A stretch of 26,157 nt of DNA from a virus, in the IMG/VR virus record IMGVR_UViG_3300044904_000297, positions 1 to 26,157 of that record; one strand, given 5' to 3'. Positions 13,830 through 26,157 of this stretch are shown one piece after another. Position 1 is the stretch's first letter, and each line of letters opens with the position of its first letter. Position numbers and translations under genes: made by a program. The notes beneath the pieces are model-generated. The model did no database searches and was not told the DNA's origin. It was given only the letters and a program-made list of their open reading frames with translations.

Positions 13830-16800
13830 ATGCCCGATGAAATTCGGCAAAAGATCGAATTAAACGCCCAGCAGGCGCTTGACGAGCTTGGAAGGCTCGA
13901 TCAAGCCTTTGTTGGTTTTGGCAATCAGTTGACTACGACGGTCAACCGGCTCAACTATTTTAATGACAATGCCGGCAAGACGGTTGCGGCATTAAAACAG
14001 ATCACCAAAGAAGCAGAATCGACGTTTAGTCATTTTTCTAAATTCAGCAATATCTCTATCCCATCCTTTGACAATCTTCTTAACAGCCGTGTCTATCGCG
14101 GCGAGCTACCTACCACCGGTCTATTGAAAGGCGGAGACGCAGCCAAACAGTTTAACGATTGGTTTGATTCCATTCAGAAAACAGGCAGCGCAGCACAAGC
14201 GACGGAACAAGCAATCAATAATCTTGGCCAGACCGGCAAAAAATCAGGTGAAAGTGTCACTCTAAGTTGGCAAACCTTTGCCCGAGTGCTCCAGACTCAA
14301 GCCCTTGTGCGCGGACTGAACATGGTCCGCGATGCGTTTACAGAGTCTTATGACGCCGCATTGGAATTTTCCAAGCAGGTAGGTGAGATTCGGGCTATTG
14401 ATCCTGATCGCAGTTTTGGACAAATCGCCGCCAATATCAGGCAGCTTTCAGATGCGTTCAATCAACCTCTTTCACGAGTTGCCGAGGCCCAGTATCAGAC
14501 GATTTCCGATCAATTTGTCACTGCTGCCGACCGTGCGAACATCCTTTCAGCGGCAAACCTACTTGCTAAGACCAGTAATCAAGATTTGGCCGAATCGGCT
14601 CAACTTCTAACTGGCGCGCTAAATGCCTACGGCGAGTCGTCAGACATGGCCGGACTGCGCGCCGCTCAGTTCTTCAAGACTGTTGAGTTAGGCCGCCTGC
14701 GCATGGGCGAGTTGGGTACGGCTTTGGGACGCATCCAATCCATTGGGCACGAGCTTGGTGTAAGCATGGAGGAATTGGACGCCGCGCTTGTTGCCACGAC
14801 CATTGGCGGAGTGAAGGCCAACGAAGCCGCTACGCAATTGCGCGGAGTGATGACCGCCTTATTAAAGCCTTCGGATGGGATGAAGGAGGCATTTCGTCAC
14901 ATCGGCGTTGATTCTGGTGAGGCGGCAATTGCCACCTGGGGCCTTAAAGGCACGCTGGAGCAGTTGCAAAAAACCACCGACGGCTCGGCCACAGCGATGG
15001 CGACTATGTTCCAAAACGTGCGGGGTCTGGCCGGTGCGTTACGATTGGCCGAATCAGGCGCACAAAAATACGACGAGGCGATAAAGAAGCTCCATGAGGT
15101 CGATCAATCTACTTTGCGCAAACTGTTTGAGGAATTTACCAGCACCGACGCCGAGAAACTGACTGTTGAACTCAACAAAATCAAGAATTTCTTCACTGCC
15201 GAGTTTGGAGCCGATCTTGTCAAGTCAGTTAGACAGGTTATGGGTGTGTTTGGCGGTGCGGACGGCATGGTGCCGGTCTTGCGGGCCTTCACTAATCAAT
15301 TAGGTCCAATGGCGGCGGGCCTTGGGACAATGGGACTTGCCCTTGCAGGCATGGCCGCGCATGCTCGACTGGCGAAACTGGAAATCGGCGGCTTGAATTC
15401 CGCACTATTATTTCTCATTGGCCTGCCCGCCGCTAAGGCACTGGGAGAAATTCTGGGGGAACGGATTTATGGCGCAATAAAAGCCCCACAAGAGGCCCTG
15501 CGCCAAGAGGCCGCTCAGGAATTGGAGGTCCGCAAGCAGCAAACCGAGGCCGCGATCCGGGAGAACGACCGCAAGAATAACGAGCTTATCAAAGGGCTGC
15601 GGCAATATCTCACTGAGGCCAACAAGCTGTACCTGCGAGATGCGGAGAATTTCAAATCCGCCTTGAAGATCGAAGAGCGGGTGGTCCAAATGGCCTTCGA
15701 CCGGATCATGCAGTTGCGCCAGAAGATGACCCAAGAGTGGTTCTCGGCGGCCGAGGAGGCATCAAATAAGGCTGCTGAAATCCCCCGCGAGATTGCGGAA
15801 ATTCAACGGAATATCGCCGACCGCGAACTTACTAAATGGATTTCAAAACTCGGCATTGACCTTGAACGACAGTTTGCAATTTATAAGCACCAGGCGGAGC
15901 AATTTTCTTCTGAAGCCGCAAAACTCCAAGGCACGGCAAAGTCATCCGATCAGGACAAAATCGCCGACACGATTTGGAAGCACGCCGAAGGCTATGCCAA
16001 GCAGACACAGGAGATTGCCAAGCAAATCGGTGATGCGCAATTGCTTAGACAGGCGGAGTGGGTGCTGCTTGATCTGGACAATAAGCGGATAGGCGCGCTG
16101 AAGGAGCAAATCAAGACCCAAGAGCAAGTCGCCAAGGAGGCTGAAAACCGGGCGCATCAGGCCGAGGCCCACAATCTGGAATTGGAGGGGATGCGGGAGG
16201 CTATTGAAGGAAAGCTCAAGGCCACGACCAAAGACGCCGAGGGAACAGTCCAGTTTAAGGGCAAGGAACAATTCAAACGCGATCTAAGCGACGCCGAGAA
16301 GCTGATTGCCAGTTTCGTCCAGAAGCTAAGGCAATATAGCGAAGAGGATTTCACCAAGAATTTTCTAGGCGATCCAAAGGCTTTTCAGTCGCTAAGGCGC
16401 GAGGCTGAGATGATGCTAGCCGGCATGAACCTCGAAAAGGTCGAGGCCGCGCCCAGAACGATTGCCGGCATGTTCGATCAGTTCCAGAAGCACCTTGATC
16501 TTGTAAAACTGCAAGCCCCTGTGCTGGTGAAGATTGAAAAGGTCACGGGATTGGACATTCTCTCCAACGGCCTGCAAAAGGTGATCGACGCCTATGAAAA
16601 GAAACTCAATGAGGCCACGGCCCGGGCTATCAAACAGCCGCTGTTGTCTGCCGGTTTGATGGCGGTTACAGACGAATATCAGGCCGCCCATAAAACCTTT
16701 GACCAATTCAGCGGAACATTAACGAACTTTGATGTTCATCAACTGGGTCAAGAAAAGGCAACTGACATACTCAAGGAGCGCACCAAGCTGTGGTCATTAG

Positions 16801-17579
16801 TGGTCGAATATGACCAATTGAGTAAAAGCCTTGAAATCACCGACCAGAATCTTTGCAAGCTAAACACGGACCAGCAGGCCGTTGACCTGGGAAAGACCTT
16901 CTTTGGCCCGACTGATCGCGCCCGGATAGCTGAGGCGCTAAACACAATGCGAGAAGCCTTGCTTCAGCGCAAGACGATCTTGGAACAGCAAAAGGGAAAC
17001 GTAATACCCAAAGACGAGAATCTGGATGAGCTAAATGCAATTAAGCAGCAGGTCGAGGAGATTAATCGCAAGAAGGACGCCGAGGGCACGACGAAGGCAA
17101 TCATTGACGACCAATTCAGCGCCATCAACAAGGTCATCGACAGTGTAAACACCTTGGCCGCGTCTTGGGGAGCAGTCGCTAATGCTGCAGGCAACGCCAC
17201 CTTGGCGATTACGGGCGATGGGTATGGTCTTGAGTCCCAATTTGCCTCTGTTGGCGGATTGATTCAACGTTTGGCCAAAGGCGGCTCAGTCCATTTCTTT
17301 GACGGCGGCGGTTTTGCACCTCATGGCACTGATTCAATTCCGGCAATGCTCTCGCCAGGAGAATTCGTAATTAACGCCGCTTCGTCTAGGCGTTTTGCAT
17401 CGCAGCTTATAGCGATGAATGCCGGGATCAAGCCCGCCTTTCGCAGCGAGGGCGGCAGCGTGACCAACATCGGCGACATCAACGTCACCGTGTCCGGCGG
17501 CGGATCGAGCCGCCAAACAGCCCGGTCCATTGCCACGGAATTGCGCCGTGAGCTGCGGCGCGGCACAGCAATCTTATAA
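13830..17579 (+). CDS. Tail tape measure protein (1249 residues)
   Basis: The longest gene of the tail module. The N-terminal half contains the TP901-type tape-measure core (about 160-420): TESYDAALEFSKQVGEIR, LTGALNAYGESS, FFKTVELGRLRMGELGTALGRIQSIG, ATTIGGVKANEAATQLRGVMTALLKP. Two hydrophobic segments lie at about 490-510 and 525-540. A long charged coiled coil follows (about 550-1100), and the C-terminus has GTDSIPAMLSPGEFVI (about 1165-1180), a motif often found at the end of tape measures. Tape measures fix tail length; at roughly 1.5 angstrom per residue the tail would be near 185 nm. A short gap with AGGAT precedes the start. Confidence 0.9.
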   Translation: MPDEIRQKIELNAQQALDELGRLDQAFVGFGNQLTTTVNRLNYFNDNAGKTVAALKQITKEAESTFSHFSKFSNISIPSFDNLLNSRVYRGELPTTGLLKGGDAAKQFNDWFDSIQKTGSAAQATEQAINNLGQTGKKSGESVTLSWQTFARVLQTQALVRGLNMVRDAFTESYDAALEFSKQVGEIRAIDPDRSFGQIAANIRQLSDAFNQPLSRVAEAQYQTISDQFVTAADRANILSAANLLAKTSNQDLAESAQLLTGALNAYGESSDMAGLRAAQFFKTVELGRLRMGELGTALGRIQSIGHELGVSMEELDAALVATTIGGVKANEAATQLRGVMTALLKPSDGMKEAFRHIGVDSGEAAIATWGLKGTLEQLQKTTDGSATAMATMFQNVRGLAGALRLAESGAQKYDEAIKKLHEVDQSTLRKLFEEFTSTDAEKLTVELNKIKNFFTAEFGADLVKSVRQVMGVFGGADGMVPVLRAFTNQLGPMAAGLGTMGLALAGMAAHARLAKLEIGGLNSALLFLIGLPAAKALGEILGERIYGAIKAPQEALRQEAAQELEVRKQQTEAAIRENDRKNNELIKGLRQYLTEANKLYLRDAENFKSALKIEERVVQMAFDRIMQLRQKMTQEWFSAAEEASNKAAEIPREIAEIQRNIADRELTKWISKLGIDLERQFAIYKHQAEQFSSEAAKLQGTAKSSDQDKIADTIWKHAEGYAKQTQEIAKQIGDAQLLRQAEWVLLDLDNKRIGALKEQIKTQEQVAKEAENRAHQAEAHNLELEGMREAIEGKLKATTKDAEGTVQFKGKEQFKRDLSDAEKLIASFVQKLRQYSEEDFTKNFLGDPKAFQSLRREAEMMLAGMNLEKVEAAPRTIAGMFDQFQKHLDLVKLQAPVLVKIEKVTGLDILSNGLQKVIDAYEKKLNEATARAIKQPLLSAGLMAVTDEYQAAHKTFDQFSGTLTNFDVHQLGQEKATDILKERTKLWSLVVEYDQLSKSLEITDQNLCKLNTDQQAVDLGKTFFGPTDRARIAEALNTMREALLQRKTILEQQKGNVIPKDENLDELNAIKQQVEEINRKKDAEGTTKAIIDDQFSAINKVIDSVNTLAASWGAVANAAGNATLAITGDGYGLESQFASVGGLIQRLAKGGSVHFFDGGGFAPHGTDSIPAMLSPGEFVINAASSRRFASQLIAMNAGIKPAFRSEGGSVTNIGDINVTVSGGGSSRQTARSIATELRRELRRGTAIL

Positions 17580-18226: not shown

Positions 18227-19204
18227 ATGGCTTATGAACGATTCGCAAATGGCGGACTCTCGTCGCTGGCCGGAGCGATTGACAGTGATGATCTCAGCCT
18301 GACGGTCAAGTCGGCTGTTGGATTTCCCCTTGGCGGCAACTTTCGCATCATCGTCGAAAGTGAGATCATGCTGGTCACCGACGTGCAAGGCCGGACATTT
18401 ACTATTGCACGGGCACAGGAAGGGACTTCGGCTGCAAGCCATGGTGCTGATACAGCCGTCTTTCATGTACTTACGGTCGGTGCCTTGGCTCAGCGGGACA
18501 TCGAGCAGTTCGCCGCCGGCTCAATCGTCAACCGCGATGCGCCCGGACAGGCAGGGCGGCTGTATTTGCCGACCGATGGTTTCCTTACCCAAGACGACGG
18601 TTCGGCTTGGAATTCACTGCCTTTTTGGCGCATGACGCCGCCGGTCATTGGCGATTTCACATGGGTCAACCAGGGTACTTCGACGGTCACCAGTCGTGGC
18701 GGCATGATGGTCCTTGAACCGCAGGCAGTGGCATCCGCTGATAGTTTACGCTTGCTTGTCAAGTCCGCTCCCGCGACTCCTTATAAGATAACAGTGGCCA
18801 TGTTGGCCCAAAGCCATTATTACACTGCTGGGGATGTCGAGCAATTCGGCGTCTGTTGGCGGGAAAGCGGCTCGGGCAAGATCATTGCTTATGGTTTTAA
18901 TTCGGGTCAATATTATTCGCTGTATTTTCGTTCACAACAATGGACAAATCCAACCACTGTATCATTCAGTATTCTAAATTTTAGGGCACCGAGGCATTAT
19001 CCCTTGTGGCTGCGTTTTGGCGATGACGGGACAAATCGACTGGTTGAAATCTCCAATGATGGCCTGAGTTTTGAGCCGATTGCACCTCCACAATCTCGAA
19101 CGACATTCATCACGGCCGATCAGGTCGGAGTATTCGCCAACAGTTGGAAAACCTCGTATGGTATACCGCGAGTTGTCTCTTTTTTGCATTGGAGTCAATC
19201 ATAA
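18227..19204 (+). CDS. Tail fibre / receptor-binding paralogue A (325 residues)
   Basis: First of three tandem paralogues. The N-terminal module (1-90) has FRIIVESEIMLVTDVQGRTFTIARAQEGT and VFHVLTVGAL. A linker (about 105-130) has GRLYLPTDG and DDGSAW. The C-terminal 200 residues, starting with WVNQGTST, form a probable concanavalin-like/LamG-type beta sandwich (YPLWLRFGDDGTNRLVEISNDGLSFEPI, QVGVFANSW, FLHWSQS), a fold often used to bind sugars. Its place beyond the tape measure suggests a tail-tip or fibre protein that contacts the host surface. TGAGGA lies upstream of the start. The stop overlaps the next start (TAATG). The lectin role is inference. Confidence 0.7.
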   Translation: MAYERFANGGLSSLAGAIDSDDLSLTVKSAVGFPLGGNFRIIVESEIMLVTDVQGRTFTIARAQEGTSAASHGADTAVFHVLTVGALAQRDIEQFAAGSIVNRDAPGQAGRLYLPTDGFLTQDDGSAWNSLPFWRMTPPVIGDFTWVNQGTSTVTSRGGMMVLEPQAVASADSLRLLVKSAPATPYKITVAMLAQSHYYTAGDVEQFGVCWRESGSGKIIAYGFNSGQYYSLYFRSQQWTNPTTVSFSILNFRAPRHYPLWLRFGDDGTNRLVEISNDGLSFEPIAPPQSRTTFITADQVGVFANSWKTSYGIPRVVSFLHWSQS

Positions 19205-20187
19205 TGGAGCGATTCAAAAATTTAGCCAGCACACAGCTTAACGGCGCGATTGACAATGCAGTCAACACGATCATCGTGGACAGTGCAATGGGCTTTACTG
19301 GTGGTGATTTTCGCATTCTGATTGACAGCGAGATTATGAAGGTTACTGGCGTTAGTGGTTTGAATTTTACAGTGACGCGCGGTGCGGAGGGCACTGTTCC
19401 CACTTCTCATGCCGACGACGCACTAGTGCGCCACATATTGACCGTAGGTGCGCTTGACGCCCATGACCAGAACGATCTAGCTGTTTATGATGCTTCCGTA
19501 AATAAACCGGCGGCTGGAGTGCCGGGTCGCATATTTCTTCCAACGGACGCCGTTTATTTTGAACGGGACAACGGTTCCGCATGGGAGAAGTTTGGGCCGC
19601 TTTGGTCGCTTACGCCCCCGCAGGTTTCAGACTTTCCCACGTGGGTGAATCAAGGATCTGCGACCGCTGTTGATAATAAGGGGGCGATTTTCATGCAAAC
19701 ATTGGGCACGATAAGTGCCACTAATGTTCGAGCAATAGTAAAGAATTACCCCGCTCCGCCCTTTATCGTGGAAATGGCTTTTATCCCTTATGTATTCAGA
19801 GGGGATTATTATTATTCTACTGTCGGCGGGCTTTGCATTTATGATAACGTCTCCGCCAAATTGCAAACTTACGGCCTATATGAAGCATATCCATATCTTC
19901 GCGGCTACAATTACACCTCACCCACTGCGGCCGCTAGCTTAATAACAGGTTGGCCCTCGGGTAATTATCCTTCCCAGCACGTCAATCTTATTTGGTTGAA
20001 ATATGAGGACGACAATACTAATCGGAAGATTTCAGTTTCCATAGATGGTTATTCTTGGTCGCAATTAGTCAGCCTCTCCAGAACAGATTATCTTACTCCG
20101 ACCCATATCGGGCTATTTCTTGAGGCTTATCAATATTCATACACTTCTTATCTTGGCAGCACCACTGTTCATTGGAAGCAATACTAA
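19204..20187 (+). CDS. Tail fibre / receptor-binding paralogue B (327 residues)
   Basis: Second paralogue, coupled by TAATG to the first. The same modules appear in the same order: FRILIDSEIMKVTGVSGLNFTVTRGAEGT, HILTVGAL, GRIFLPTDAV, NGSAW, then WVNQGSATAV and a C-terminal beta domain with VNLIWLKYEDDNTNRKISVSIDGYSWSQLV, HIGLFLEAY and TTVHWKQY. Aromatic residues are frequent in the middle of the C-terminal domain (GDYYYSTVGG, YPYLRGYNY), which would suit sugar stacking. The N-terminal half is closer between paralogues than the C-terminal half, so the exposed domain may be diversifying. Confidence 0.7.
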   Translation: MERFKNLASTQLNGAIDNAVNTIIVDSAMGFTGGDFRILIDSEIMKVTGVSGLNFTVTRGAEGTVPTSHADDALVRHILTVGALDAHDQNDLAVYDASVNKPAAGVPGRIFLPTDAVYFERDNGSAWEKFGPLWSLTPPQVSDFPTWVNQGSATAVDNKGAIFMQTLGTISATNVRAIVKNYPAPPFIVEMAFIPYVFRGDYYYSTVGGLCIYDNVSAKLQTYGLYEAYPYLRGYNYTSPTAAASLITGWPSGNYPSQHVNLIWLKYEDDNTNRKISVSIDGYSWSQLVSLSRTDYLTPTHIGLFLEAYQYSYTSYLGSTTVHWKQY

Positions 20188-21149
20188 TGGAAGCTTTTGC
20201 CAATCAGGCAGTCTCTACTCTTTCGGCTGCCATCACCACGGCCACCGCCGCAAGTTGCTCAGTCGTTGACGCCACTGCGTTTCCGGCCACGGGGAATTTC
20301 CGTATAAAAATTGATGACGAATTGCTCATTGTAACCGCCGTGGCCGGAAATACTTTTACGATTATTCGCGGGGTTGAGGGCACCACTGCGGCCACGCACG
20401 GCAGTGGCGCGAATGTCATTCATCTTTTGACTAAGGGCAGCTTGGAAGCACGGGTCGCCAATCGGTTCATCTCCGACATTTACGACAATAAGCCGTCAGC
20501 CGGAGTCAAGGGACGCCTTTTTCTGCCCACGGATGGATTATTTCTGGAATACGATGATGGATCGGCCTGGCACAAGTATGGGCCATATAAACGTCTCAAA
20601 GCGCCGCCTCAAACTGGCTGGATATGGGTAAATCAAGGTAATGCCACGGCTACGCATACGGGCAGCACTTTGATATTGGAAGACCCTGATCTTGATGCCA
20701 CAAATCCGCAACTTCGCGTATATGTGCGATATCCGTCGAAATGGCCCGTGACAATCACAATGGCTTACACTTTTAACGGGATCGTAAGCAATGTCTCTTA
20801 CATGGGCTTTTGTTTTCGTGAAATTGGCGGTGATAGTGACGGCTATATTACGACCTTTGGTTCTGAACAACCCACGGATCAATTTTCCCAGCGCAGTTGC
20901 AGATATAGTTCTCCAACAGTGAAACTAACGGATAATTTTACTAATTATAAATTCTGGCCTAGACAAATTATCTGGTGGCGGCTGGAAATTCTGGGAAATA
21001 AACAAAGAATATCCAGTTCGGCGGATGGAGTTAATTTCCTGCGAGTAGTCGAAATACAAAATGATCCAGACCAATTCGGCATCTTCATCGATCCTACCAA
21101 CAACAGCCAAAAGGTTTCCATGAGTTTGGTTCATTGGGAAGAGAGTTAA
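20187..21149 (+). CDS. Tail fibre / receptor-binding paralogue C (320 residues)
   Basis: Third paralogue, coupled by TAATG to the second. It repeats the modules: FRIKIDDELLIVTAVAGNTFTIIRGVEGT, HLLTKGSL, GRLFLPTDGL, DDGSAW, WVNQGNAT, then a beta domain ending FGIFIDPTNNSQ and SLVHWEES. Compared with A and B, the C-terminal domain has two extra cysteines (GFCFRE and RSCRYSS). It is followed after three bases by the repeat-rich tail protein. Role and fold are inferred as for its neighbours; a search by structure would tell whether all three bind sugars. Confidence 0.7.
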   Translation: MEAFANQAVSTLSAAITTATAASCSVVDATAFPATGNFRIKIDDELLIVTAVAGNTFTIIRGVEGTTAATHGSGANVIHLLTKGSLEARVANRFISDIYDNKPSAGVKGRLFLPTDGLFLEYDDGSAWHKYGPYKRLKAPPQTGWIWVNQGNATATHTGSTLILEDPDLDATNPQLRVYVRYPSKWPVTITMAYTFNGIVSNVSYMGFCFREIGGDSDGYITTFGSEQPTDQFSQRSCRYSSPTVKLTDNFTNYKFWPRQIIWWRLEILGNKQRISSSADGVNFLRVVEIQNDPDQFGIFIDPTNNSQKVSMSLVHWEES

Positions 21150-21152
21150 ACA

Positions 21153-22931
21153 ATGACACAAACCGGCAAATTGGGCACTGCTGATTCCCAACTGGGCAAT
21201 ATGCCGCCGGCCTTTGCCTGTTTAGACGATGCTTTGCCCTCGACGGGTATGATGAGCGGTAAGCTTGGCATATCTGCCTCGATGCTGGGGAATGTTCTTT
21301 TTGCTCTTAGCGGACCAGATAGCCCGAAGGTCATACACCTTTGGACCCAAAGCTTATTGTTGCTTACGCATTCAGCCGTGTGTGAAGCAGAGTTCGTGCC
21401 TCATGCATCTCCGGCATGGGCATTGGGCGGCTTTGATTCCCGATTGGGCAATAATCTGCTTGCTTTTACTGGCGCAGATGCTCCGGGTCCATTAACCGGT
21501 TCTATTACCGGCAGGCTTGGCACCGCCAATTCGACACTGGGCAATATGCGCCCTGCCTTAGGCAATGAAGAAGGTGAAAGCGACGCCGGTATCATCAATG
21601 TTTCCGCCGATAGCGTTCTATCGCTTACACAATCCGCCAGATATCAAGCTGTGTTTGCGCGCAATGCGTCCTGTGCATTATCGCTGGACCATACGGTCTT
21701 GCTAACTACCATGCTTACGGCCTCCGCCGATAACACGCTTGCCTTGGAATATGAAGCCGTTGGGATGCTGGGCGGCATCCATATTCTCTCTGCTGAAAAT
21801 ACTCTTGACCTGGAACAGGCAGTTGGTGCCGCAGTTGTTTTGAATTTATCCGCCCAAAGCACCCTAACTCTTATTCAGAATGCAATTGGAGCAAATGGAC
21901 GCGAGTATGAGCTTGATGCCGAAAGTGTGCTTGACATCGAACAGGATTGCACCGCCTTTCATACATTCAATGTAGCGGCGGAAACTCCACTTTTGCTTTT
22001 CCAAGGCGTGGCAGTCAGCCGGCCTTGGCATTTGTCGGCCGAAAGTGTCTTGCAGGAAACTCATTGGGAATTTTCGCCCGCTACACTTGGACTTGTCGAG
22101 GTCATTGTTGGGCTTAACGATTCGGCGGAACTAGCACGCCCGTTATCATTGGAAGCTGGCAATGTAGTTCCATTGATGCAAACGGCCAGCGCCGTCTGCG
22201 TCAAACCGACCGCGATTAATCTGTCCGCCGAGAACATAATCGCACTAATCGATGGTGTCGATAAGAATCAAGCAGCTAGCGCCTCAACCTGGCTTGCGTT
22301 TTCACAGACTGCCGCGATTGATACTTGCAAGCCGCTTGAGTCCGAGTTGGAGTTGACATCGGAGGCGGCAGCGTCGATTGTTCGTAAGTGTAGTGCGGCA
22401 TCGGCCCTAACGCTCACTCAGTCGGTAACGTTCACTATTGTTAAAGGTGACATCCAATATCAATATCATCCATTCATTGGCGAGGGATCGCCAAATGCAC
22501 CAGCGCCGCCACCTGCTACGTTGGCTGGACCACTGGAGGGCATAACAACCCCGTTCCAACTTCTATATCCCGCCACAGGCGATGCGACTGATTATGTAAC
22601 CTTGCGAGCGCCTGATTTCGGTAACAAAGATCGGCTCAGCTTCAATCGTGTCCTTCGCGAGACTAGGGGTGGAACGCTTATTGTCTATGCTGATCCGATC
22701 TGGCCCAAGATTCAGACCCTAGTATTGAATTTTTCCGGTTTGCCAACTGTCAAAGCCAGACAACTGCTCGATTTTTTGGACGGCCATCTGGGCGAGGAGG
22801 TCGGCCTCATGGATTGGGAGCATAGATACTGGCGAGGAGTGGTCACCACGCCCGATGATCCCGTGGTTCAGGACGGTCCAGACAGCTTTTCGGCCAGCTT
22901 TGAGTTCGAGGGCGAATTGGTTCCTGCATAG
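21153..22931 (+). CDS. Repeat-rich minor tail protein (592 residues)
   Basis: The protein is modular. Residues 1-135 contain four copies of a G(K/R)LGTA(D/N)S.LGNM-type motif (5-17, 36-48, 92-101, 120-132). Residues 149-423 hold about 12 copies of a 19-22-residue unit, best seen as LSAENTLDLEQ, LSAQSTLTLIQ, DAESVLDIEQ. A proline-rich hinge (448-456) leads to a C-terminal domain (467-592) with FGNKDRLSFNRVLRETRGGTLIVY, LDGHLGEEVGLMDWEHRYWRGVV and a final FEFEG, a pattern of phage minor tail proteins that also occurs in the next gene. The repeats may build an elongated beta solenoid or fibre at the tail tip. Function not recognised. Confidence 0.65.
   Translation: MTQTGKLGTADSQLGNMPPAFACLDDALPSTGMMSGKLGISASMLGNVLFALSGPDSPKVIHLWTQSLLLLTHSAVCEAEFVPHASPAWALGGFDSRLGNNLLAFTGADAPGPLTGSITGRLGTANSTLGNMRPALGNEEGESDAGIINVSADSVLSLTQSARYQAVFARNASCALSLDHTVLLTTMLTASADNTLALEYEAVGMLGGIHILSAENTLDLEQAVGAAVVLNLSAQSTLTLIQNAIGANGREYELDAESVLDIEQDCTAFHTFNVAAETPLLLFQGVAVSRPWHLSAESVLQETHWEFSPATLGLVEVIVGLNDSAELARPLSLEAGNVVPLMQTASAVCVKPTAINLSAENIIALIDGVDKNQAASASTWLAFSQTAAIDTCKPLESELELTSEAAASIVRKCSAASALTLTQSVTFTIVKGDIQYQYHPFIGEGSPNAPAPPPATLAGPLEGITTPFQLLYPATGDATDYVTLRAPDFGNKDRLSFNRVLRETRGGTLIVYADPIWPKIQTLVLNFSGLPTVKARQLLDFLDGHLGEEVGLMDWEHRYWRGVVTTPDDPVVQDGPDSFSASFEFEGELVPA
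21597..22421 (+). repeat. Protein-level tandem repeat, about 20 residues x 12
   Basis: In-frame units of roughly 60 bases encode [hydrophobic]-S/D-A-E/D/Q-(N/S)-(T/V)-L-x-L-x-Q. The best-preserved units start near protein residues 189, 211, 231, 253, 273 and 293, with spacings of 20 or 22. DNA identity between units is low, so it is an old repeat kept at the protein level. Confidence 0.7.
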
Positions 22932-22954: not shown

Positions 22955-23353
22955 ATGTTTCAGCTTTCCGCCCCTTATCCGCTGCTTCAGACTACCACGC
23001 TTTTGTCCAATCCGCAGTTTAGCGACCAAGAGGGGCTTACTGCGTCCGTAACTCGCAAGACAGCAATGGACGGCACACGATACACCTACGTCAAGCGAAA
23101 GAACAACCGACGAAAATTAAAATGGTCGTTTAGACTTACTCGTAACAAGGCCCTTGAACTAAGGACCTTTATCTATGCCTACTTCGCCTCGTATGTAAAA
23201 ATCATCGACCATAATGGCCGGGTGTGGATTGGTAATTTCACAAACAATCCTTTTGAGTTTGACACGCCCGAGCGGGCTGCCCCTGCGATCAGCCCCATGC
23301 CGCGCGGTGAAGTGCAGACAATAGATTTAGATTTTGAGGGAGTCGAGCGATGA
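22955..23353 (+). CDS. Minor tail protein (132 residues), related to the end of the preceding protein
   Basis: The product is basic in its middle (YVKRKNNRRKLKWSFRL) with LRTFIYAYFASYVKIIDHNGRVWIGNFTNNP, followed by EVQTIDLDFEG. This strand-helix-strand order (aromatic/basic stretch, F...Y...G.W.G...NP, F.FEG-like end) parallels the C-terminal domain of the upstream 592-residue protein, so both may share a fold. The A/T-rich gap 22932-22954 has no clear Shine-Dalgarno. The stop overlaps the hub gene start (ATGA). A role at the tail tip is inferred from position. Confidence 0.6.
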   Translation: MFQLSAPYPLLQTTTLLSNPQFSDQEGLTASVTRKTAMDGTRYTYVKRKNNRRKLKWSFRLTRNKALELRTFIYAYFASYVKIIDHNGRVWIGNFTNNPFEFDTPERAAPAISPMPRGEVQTIDLDFEGVER

Positions 23354-26157
23354 GGAACATTTCCCAGGCGGGCTTAACAAAACTGGCACAGCGCCACGGC
23401 AACGAATCAATAATTATTATCGAGGTAGATTGGGTTGCCGGAAGCACCTCGGCATATGCGGATCGGACCGTGGGATCGATTCCCGGCCGAATCGTCGAGC
23501 TTGGGGATTTAGACAATATTATTAATGTCAGCAATTCCAGCGGTTCGCAGGAACTTTCCCTCATATTGGACGACACAGACGGCACAATAAAGGCCATCTT
23601 CGACGCACACGACATCCACAAGCGGACAGCGCGAGTTTATCAGTATTTTAGCGGCCTTGATCTCACTGATAAATTTCTGCTATTTAGCGGTAAAGTCTCG
23701 TCACCGATCGTCTGGAACGAACGCGACCGCACCTTTAGCTTCACCATTCTTTCGCAACTGGAAGACAAAGAGATCGGCTTTAGCGCGGAAGAAGGCCAAT
23801 TCCCATACCTGCCGGCAGACATGGTTGGCAAGGCCTGGCCCATGATCTTCGGCAAGGTGATGAACTGCCCCACACTGCAAGTCAATAAGGCCGTGACCGG
23901 CACCACTCTGACCGGCGCTGGCATTCTCAGCGGCCTCGATCTCTGGGCAAAGCTGCCCGATGGTGCCGACGATTCGGCATATTTTTCAAGCCTGCTTCAG
24001 ATGGTGGTGCAGATTAACCATCTTAAAAAGGCCAAGGACTGCTGGGCACCATTTGGCCACCAGCCAATAGATGCTGTGAAAGCTGCCGATATCCAGAAAC
24101 AAATCGACACCTTGCAGCAACAAATGATTGAGGCCGCCGCAAACCGCAGTAAGCAACAAGCCTGCGCCCTTGCACGTCGGCAGCAACAGATCGACGATGC
24201 CAACTCCCAAGGACTAGGTGCCAACCCGATCAACATCCTCGGCGGAGAGGATTTTCCCCAAGGCCGCACCGTTACCATCAATATTGGCGGCGGCCTTTTT
24301 ACTGGCCACTTTGCAGGTAATTTATTTTACGTGGATAGTCGTCAACACCCCGCCGATGATGCAACGGCCGTCAGCGCCTATGCAAGTAAGACGCAAGAAC
24401 CGGCGGTTTGCGCAGATGTCACTCAGCGAACTTACTACCGATACGAGACAAAAGTACCAAAGGGCTGCGGCAATGACAACGGTATTATGGGAGGCGAGTA
24501 CGTCATTGACGAAGGTGTCTTAATTACCACGAGGGACGCCACAGTTAGCGAGATGGACACCGAGCCTGTCGCGCAACAGTTCTGGACCGACGCCGGGGCT
24601 ACGGTCACAGTTGCCGAGGACGAACCCATCACCTATATCATTTCCATTGTGCCCGGCACGGTGCTGGCAGTAAAAGCCTACAAGCAACTTTCCGGCGAGC
24701 GCAGGCTGGTGGACGTGCCCACCAACCTTTACACGATCGCAACAAAGACTTATGGCACCGTCACTGCCGTTCAAGTCACGGTTGCCAAGCCGCTTAGTTC
24801 CATTACGGATCAAGGCTGGAGCGACGATCTGTATGTGACCTTCGAGTCCAACGTCGGCCCCGACATTGTGGAAATTCTCAAGTATATCATCGCAAATTAT
24901 ACGGACTTGACCTGGGATATAGATTCCTTTGACTATGTTCAAGAGAAACTCCAGCCATTTCCAGCGAATTTTCCTATTTTAGAAAGGAAGAACACGCTTG
25001 AAGTGCTGCAAGAGATTGCCTTTCAGGCACGCTCAGCTATCTGGATAAGCAACGGTGTGTTCTATTTGAAATATCTGCCAGAAGAACCAACGTCGGTCGA
25101 TGCAATCACTATAAGCGACATTGACGCCGAAAAAGGCATTGAGGTGGAATTGACCAGTACGGAAGACATTGTGACAAAGATGGTGATAAAATGGCGGCTG
25201 AGTTTGGCCGCACTCTCGGACCGGTCGAAAGAGACCAACGAAAAGTCGATCATATTGCGCAACAATGTAGCCAGGTACGGCACGCAGGAACAGGAGTATG
25301 ATTTCTACATCTACAATCAGCCTGACATTATATATAAGTGTGCGACGTTCTGGCTAATTCGCAAGTCAAACACCTGGAAAAGGATCAAGTTCAAGACCTT
25401 CTTGAACAAGCTGAATCTGGAAACGTTCGACGCCGTGATGTTGGATTTTGCTGATCCTTACGTAGCCAATGGTAGTATTACAGCGATTGTCGAGAAGGCC
25501 AATTACAACTCAGCTGAGAATTGTGTGGATTTCGAGTGCCTGCTGCCAGTAGCAGCGGGCACAATGGAAAAGTATCGTTTCTTCTGGCCGGCGGCTTTGC
25601 CACCTACGGACACCTGGCCACCGGCAAACGAGATTGCAGCCGGAAACGGCGGGGGCGGCGGCATCGGCGCTGGGGCAGTTGGCGATCTGCCCGTAGGCGG
25701 CACGGCAACCATTCCCGAAGGCGGAGTGATTTTTGTGGGCGGTCCGAATATCGTCTTCCGTTCGCAAAGTGATCGTGGCGACCGCACCCCGACCGATGTT
25801 GGTTTCACGCCTCAGTCTGTTGTAGACACCGCGACATACATAAATTTATCGCCTGGTTCCCGACCACGACTGAACCTGCGTATCTATCCCCGGCGCAGCC
25901 TGCCTGCTATTCCTCTGAAAAAACCGGAAGGCAGTGTCTTTACTGTCGACCTCCACAACACTAAAATTCTCGACACCTCTGGCGCGGAAACGAAGGTGGG
26001 AACTCTATCGGACGTTCTGGCATTTGGCCCGGATTATTTAGGTCTCCGCTCCGACGTTTCCATCGAAGATGGAACCAACGGTGAGCATGAGTTCGACTTC
26101 CAATACGATGAAGAAAGTGGCAAGTTCGGCGCGGGAACAGCATTTTTACAAGATTGA
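23350..26157 (+). CDS. Tail tip / hub protein (935 residues)
   Basis: The stop codon is the final base of the window, so the gene is complete. The first 180 residues (IIIIEVDWVAGSTSAYADRTV, GRIVELGDLDNIINVSNSSGSQELSLILDD, FSGKVSSPIVWNERDRTFSFTILSQLEDKE) look like the N-terminal hub domain of tail-tip proteins of the J/gp27 type (DUF2163-like pattern). A helix-rich insert lies at 243-285. The middle (about 490-740) carries EILKYIIANYTDLTWDI and LEVLQEIAFQARSAIWISNG, common to hub proteins. A Gly-rich linker (766-784) leads to a separate C-terminal domain (about 785-935) with many beta strands, perhaps a fibre attachment or receptor-binding domain. Confidence 0.8.
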   Translation: MRNISQAGLTKLAQRHGNESIIIIEVDWVAGSTSAYADRTVGSIPGRIVELGDLDNIINVSNSSGSQELSLILDDTDGTIKAIFDAHDIHKRTARVYQYFSGLDLTDKFLLFSGKVSSPIVWNERDRTFSFTILSQLEDKEIGFSAEEGQFPYLPADMVGKAWPMIFGKVMNCPTLQVNKAVTGTTLTGAGILSGLDLWAKLPDGADDSAYFSSLLQMVVQINHLKKAKDCWAPFGHQPIDAVKAADIQKQIDTLQQQMIEAAANRSKQQACALARRQQQIDDANSQGLGANPINILGGEDFPQGRTVTINIGGGLFTGHFAGNLFYVDSRQHPADDATAVSAYASKTQEPAVCADVTQRTYYRYETKVPKGCGNDNGIMGGEYVIDEGVLITTRDATVSEMDTEPVAQQFWTDAGATVTVAEDEPITYIISIVPGTVLAVKAYKQLSGERRLVDVPTNLYTIATKTYGTVTAVQVTVAKPLSSITDQGWSDDLYVTFESNVGPDIVEILKYIIANYTDLTWDIDSFDYVQEKLQPFPANFPILERKNTLEVLQEIAFQARSAIWISNGVFYLKYLPEEPTSVDAITISDIDAEKGIEVELTSTEDIVTKMVIKWRLSLAALSDRSKETNEKSIILRNNVARYGTQEQEYDFYIYNQPDIIYKCATFWLIRKSNTWKRIKFKTFLNKLNLETFDAVMLDFADPYVANGSITAIVEKANYNSAENCVDFECLLPVAAGTMEKYRFFWPAALPPTDTWPPANEIAAGNGGGGGIGAGAVGDLPVGGTATIPEGGVIFVGGPNIVFRSQSDRGDRTPTDVGFTPQSVVDTATYINLSPGSRPRLNLRIYPRRSLPAIPLKKPEGSVFTVDLHNTKILDTSGAETKVGTLSDVLAFGPDYLGLRSDVSIEDGTNGEHEFDFQYDEESGKFGAGTAFLQD

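Follow-up and report, generated by a model that had tools for sequence, protein, structure and literature searches.

The repeat gene and its neighbours

The window, the whole 26,157-nucleotide stretch of DNA that we analysed (IMG/VR record IMGVR_UViG_3300044904_000297), contains a 592-residue open reading frame that consists, from N- to C-terminus, of LG motifs, a repeat array, a proline-rich linker and a gpM-like domain (Table 1). In 34 relatives M1 hardly varies, which supports its ATG start. The gene follows the tape measure gene, with tail-fibre-like genes interposed, and precedes two genes for a 132-residue paralogue of the gpM-like domain and a 935-residue protein. The latter, which has no family match and follows in relatives too, is by position the tail hub or host-specificity protein, and in relatives the repeat gene adjoins the paralogue and hub genes. 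The three tandem tail-fibre-like genes are 31-42% identical, and a fourth copy is present in relatives L012 and L018-L020. Near the start of the window, a 198-aa protein (885-1481) matched PHROG 1128 (E 2e-12); it may have a small cysteine-peptidase-type fold.

Table 1. Position of the repeat gene, its parts and its neighbours in the window
Feature	Position	Strand	Residues and remarks
Tape measure protein (PhageMin_Tail)	13830..17579	+	upstream
Three tandem paralogous tail-fibre-like genes	18227..21149	+	between tape measure and repeat gene
Repeat gene	21153..22931	+	592 aa, ATG start
LG motif 1, GKLGTADSQLGNM	21165..21203	+	aa 5-17
LG motif 2, GKLGISASMLGNV	21258..21296	+	aa 36-48
Isolated repeat-like stretch, KVIHLWTQSLLLLTHSAVCEAEFV	21327..21398	+	aa 59-82; relatives have VIHLSAESVLAIAQTADPAPTF here
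LG motif 3, degenerate, ALGGFDSRLGNN	21420..21455	+	aa 90-101
LG motif 4, GRLGTANSTLGNM	21510..21548	+	aa 120-132
Array of 14 units, ~20 residues each	21606..22454	+	aa 152-434
Linker, PNAPAPPPATLAGP	22464..22538	+	aa 438-462; proline run; Y438 and P440 invariant
gpM-like distal-tail domain	22539..22928	+	aa 463-592
Paralogue of gpM-like domain	22955..23353	+	132 aa; directly after repeat gene
Putative hub gene	23350..26157	+	935 aa; cut by window end

We found no match for the 592-aa protein in Pfam, PHROGs or NCBIfam, nor by sequence search of the PDB, so that for this protein the remark in the initial annotation that no described fold is recognised for the repeat stands. Nor did the PDB yield anything usable when it was queried by sequence with the C-terminal domain, array, paralogue and hub. 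Across 50,697 deposited phages, neither the whole protein nor the C-terminal domain, the paralogue or the hub had a match; the arrays of two relatives also had none there, though the low-complexity filter may hide array matches.

Repeat units and their predicted fold

The N-terminal region had been described as carrying four G(K/R)LGTA(D/N)S.LGNM motifs. A relaxed form of this pattern is present at all four places, but the exact pattern occurs only at the first and last. The relaxed pattern gave two hits in only 1 of 20,000 shuffles, so these motifs are not a product of chance. In the isolated repeat-like stretch between the second and third motifs, AlphaFold2 (AF2) placed strands at aa 59-65 and 69-74.

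To delimit the array, we built a unit profile from other phages only and chained units at a spacing of 17-25 residues. The resulting 14-unit chain scored 157, compared with a mean of 7 and a maximum of 12 for shuffled sequence; 13 of the units scored above 2 and one was negative, with successive spacings of 20, 20, 22, 20, 22, 20, 20, 19, 20, 24, 18, 18 and 20 residues. Without any outside profile, self-similarity of the window protein peaked at lags of 42 (z 5.05) and 20 (z 4.9), the largest shuffle maximum being 4.4. The array of roughly 20-residue units reported initially is therefore real, but the earlier count of about 12 units becomes 14 when weak units are included, plus the lone unit-like segment around aa 59-82. 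Each unit follows the consensus A-E-S-[TA]-L-x-L-x-[DQ]-x-A, after which come nine variable residues; A, S and T are abundant in the units, and indels cluster around positions 11-19. Pfam matches of array segments to TraI_2B and similar families were discarded as composition artefacts.

Large or small hydrophobic (inward-type) residues occupy the odd unit positions throughout both predicted strands. Positions 1-12 were used in scoring and are hence partly biased, whereas positions 13-20 were unscored; among the latter, the share of V/I/L/M/F/W was 0.41, 0.36, 0.44 and 0.50 at positions 13, 15, 17 and 19, compared with 0.20, 0.11 and 0.07 at positions 14, 18 and 20, position 16 (0.49) being the exception. 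In our view, a pair of sheets packed face to face around a core would explain this pattern better than a tight hairpin would.

We then predicted the structure of the first seven units with AF2, picking alignment rows that stayed in register, since MAFFT had slid units in the 117-row alignment. This model reached a pLDDT of 73.5 and a pTM of 0.70, with two strands of 5-8 residues in each unit. The full-length model had a mean pLDDT of 49.6 and was poor except for aa 145-265 and the C-terminal domain, with aa 321-442 below 50. Foldseek of the repeat model gave no significant match to a solved fold (best E 0.34, probability at most 0.05); its weak, non-significant matches were mostly to parallel beta-helix proteins (LpxD, GlmU, pectate lyases, ice-binding proteins, bactofilin and a tail spike). 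The hydrophobic pattern fits a two-sheet beta-solenoid. Of the initial suggestion of a beta-solenoid or stacked-strand fold we can say that the AF2 strands and the odd-position pattern favour it but do not prove it, and the topology is a putative one.

The gpM-like domain, its relatives and a probable host

The initial annotation placed a minor-tail domain behind a proline hinge. The proline-rich linker is real, and what follows the array is a separate, conserved C-terminal domain with 71% mean column identity and invariant ETRGG, WPK and DW motifs. AF2 predicted strands and one helix (aa 532-545) for this domain with a pLDDT of 79-89. Using hhalign, we compared the domain (22 relatives) with 14 proteins of the lambda gpM family and obtained a probability of 95.3% (E 2e-8, 80 columns), while negative controls against the same family gave 0.2% for the hub and 0.03% for the repeat array. 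Only the family profile matched: the lambda gpM and TP901-1 Dit sequences, taken singly, gave no match. With the full model as query, the Foldseek matches were distal tail and tail-tube proteins, at high probability but modest E values of 0.02-0.1; they included TP901-1 baseplate chains (probability 0.96-0.99), distal tail proteins in BFVD (1.00) and, from phage Lana, a tail protein of 109 aa (TM by target 0.60). In the Lana genome a gene of this length occupies the gpM position, following a large tail-protein gene and preceding gpL, K and I. One pairwise profile comparison, together with Foldseek matches of weak E value, thus supports assignment of the domain to the gpM / distal-tail group. 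The description of a tail protein with two repeat families and a minor-tail domain is in this way borne out, and the domain can be named. In lambda, gpM forms the hexameric distal-tail ring between tail tube and hub (PMC10721106).

The 132-aa protein encoded directly downstream is homologous to the gpM-like domain (94.8%), and the domain profile also matches the paralogue in relatives. It was present in 49 of 51 loci examined, where it precedes the hub gene, and it had no direct match to the lambda gpM family (2.9%). Given this adjacent paralogue, these phages may have two stacked distal-tail rings or a specialised second ring protein.

Searching IMG/VR, we found the C-terminal domain encoded at 46 loci (40-79% identity) and a relative of the 132-aa gene at 133 places, all of it uncultivated material. 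About 80 related loci have the same gene and neighbours; 78 of 80 loci fetched by the 132-aa gene match the C-terminal profile of the repeat gene, although in some truncated loci this match is to the paralogue only. Every complete copy of the repeat gene has at least 6 recognisable units, the longest about 35, and no complete relative lacking an array was found among the roughly 80 loci. Unit number varies even between close relatives: L010, L012 and L038 are 94% identical in the gpM-like domain, and their proteins have 626, 829 and 1024 residues with 20, 22 and 32 units respectively, counts that are approximate because of weak units. Loss of the repeat gene, which we considered for L112 and L113, was rejected, as the L113 record has the gene elsewhere and the L112 record is a 30-kb piece. 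In these two loci (L112:1-3676 and L113:172-5695) the usual site of the gene is taken up by genes for a tail protein with collagen-like (GPSGPTG) sequence and for a second large protein.

The N-terminal modules differ among relatives. LG motifs are carried by the window protein and by L003, L005-L007, L009-L012 and L014, RVTRQ..EVL-type motifs stand at the N-terminus of L015, L025, L036 and L052, and DUF2341 is the N-terminal module in L126 and L130. By Pfam, an F5/8 type C domain is present in L026, L104, L129, L130 and L134, and LamG in L130 and, just under the cut-off, in L016; these F5/8-type or LamG-type domains, found in six relatives, sit N-terminal to or inside the array. A Pfam search recognised no lectin domain in the window's own protein. 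Such swapping of N-terminal modules is what one would expect where a protein contacts the host. At the other end of the protein, the gpM-like domain of L015, L016, L017, L024, L030 and L031 is followed by a further module of about 160 residues (e.g., AESDDTIVAGQPVYI...).

To look for a host, we searched 84,980 prokaryote genomes and obtained five matches, in four Planctomycetota MAGs and one Kiritimatiellae MAG. In L051 and L052 the phage genes are part of long contigs (290 and 444 kb), each of which also encodes a terminase; elsewhere these contigs carry ordinary bacterial genes (DUF1501, FG-GAP, sulfate permease, amino-acid permease and outer membrane efflux protein), and one of the two has an integrase gene about 31 kb from the repeat gene. 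L051 and L052 look like prophages of Planctomycetota, and from these prophage-like relatives we infer that the window virus, too, has a Planctomycetota host.

A putative repeat arm at the tail tip

We propose, with a probability of roughly 0.6, that the window protein is a gpM-type ring protein whose repeat array serves as a spacer and adhesin arm at the tail tip. The C-terminal domain would form or join a ring at the tail tip, perhaps of six copies, and the N-terminal extension would project from it as a narrow two-sheet beta-solenoid of roughly 20-residue strand-arc-strand units. Placed around the ring, such arms would act as variable-length spacers and adhesins, so that outer modules (the LG motifs in the window; in relatives, lectin domains of the F5/8 or LamG type) reach the host surface ahead of injection by the hub. 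The word fibre, used in the initial annotation, is less apt: as the array extends the N-terminus of a ring-type protein, several short arms around the tail tip are likelier than one central fibre.

The array could instead be a flexible spacer, largely disordered or made of single-layer antiparallel strands with no solenoid, leaving the gpM-like domain as the only compact part. The low pLDDT over aa 321-442 in the full-length model, the lack of a solved-fold match and the A-, S- and T-rich units agree with this idea, which we nonetheless consider unlikely, since the seven register-aligned units reach a pLDDT of 73.5 and a pTM of 0.70 with strictly two strands each and hydrophobic or small residues fill the odd positions of both strands, the unscored positions 13-19 included; a hairpin with a two-residue turn would be expected to put the odd positions on opposite faces. 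It is likewise improbable that the gene encodes a tail fibre or receptor-binding protein in its own right, in which the gpM-like domain is an anchor only and the 132-aa paralogue makes the ring. That paralogue is indeed homologous to the domain, nearly always present and placed before the hub, and tail-fibre-like genes lie directly upstream of the repeat gene. However, the gpM family matches the domain of the repeat protein and not the paralogue (95.3% versus 2.9%), and nearly all relatives retain the repeat gene, even where it has moved (L113).

A further explanation would make the repeats an amyloid-like module of the curlin type, through which virions would attach to one another or to the matrix of a biofilm instead of a receptor. 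In curlin, too, the repeats are strand-arc-strand units, 23 +/- 5 residues long, that stack into a two-sheet beta-solenoid (PMC10192328), and many units of the window protein have an S-x-L-x-L-x-Q spacing similar to that of curlin motif a. Set against this likeness, 33 array segments gave no Curlin_rpt (Pfam) match at E values up to 5, and the N/Q ladders of curlin are not conserved at matching places of the second strand, which makes this explanation very unlikely. The array nevertheless shares with curlin (CsgA) and other two-sheet beta-solenoids a unit of about 20 residues, two predicted strands in each, alternating inward residues and a variable unit number; it differs from these in being part of a phage tail protein, and it has no sequence or significant structural match to them.

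Returning to the ring protein with an arm, its closest counterparts are distal tail proteins. The window protein resembles lambda gpM and the Dit ring in its C-terminal domain, by profile and predicted fold class, and in a gene position between tape measure and hub. Lambda gpM, though, is 109 aa long and armless, whereas the window protein has about 460 residues before the domain and a second paralogous gene follows. To TP901-1 Dit we found no sequence relationship. Evolved Dits of lactococcal and other Gram-positive siphophages are distal-tail ring proteins enlarged by extra modules, as we propose for the window protein, in some relatives of which such modules are of sugar-binding type; evolved Dits with carbohydrate-binding insertions aid adsorption (PMC10688798; PMC6669499). 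There the CBM is an internal insertion, whereas in the window group the array, with 6 to about 35 units, is N-terminal and is accompanied by N-terminal modules. As far as sequence comparison indicates, the repeat and its fusion to a gpM-type domain match no named family in the libraries searched, and the type of device would be a known one. Searching the literature, we came across no paper that describes distal tail proteins with solenoid arms.

It is possible, although we rather doubt it, that a previously undescribed, expandable 20-residue beta-solenoid forms the distal-tail-ring arms of widespread uncultivated Planctomycetota siphophages, with unit number tuning the reach of a lectin tip and host surface layers selecting arm length. 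The assignment proposed here would name a repeat protein that lacks matches in Pfam, NCBIfam and the deposited phages, and would give it a place that can be tested, the tail-tip ring; its virus group occurs at over 130 places in IMG/VR, and we link it to Planctomycetota. Evolved Dits would then comprise not only rings with one extra sugar-binding domain but also rings with a modular arm, the length of which varies by whole units among phages whose ring domains hardly differ. PHROG 12240, a family with no assigned function, has no match to the window's own array, but its profile matches the arrays of L034 (E 3e-12), L026 and L031.
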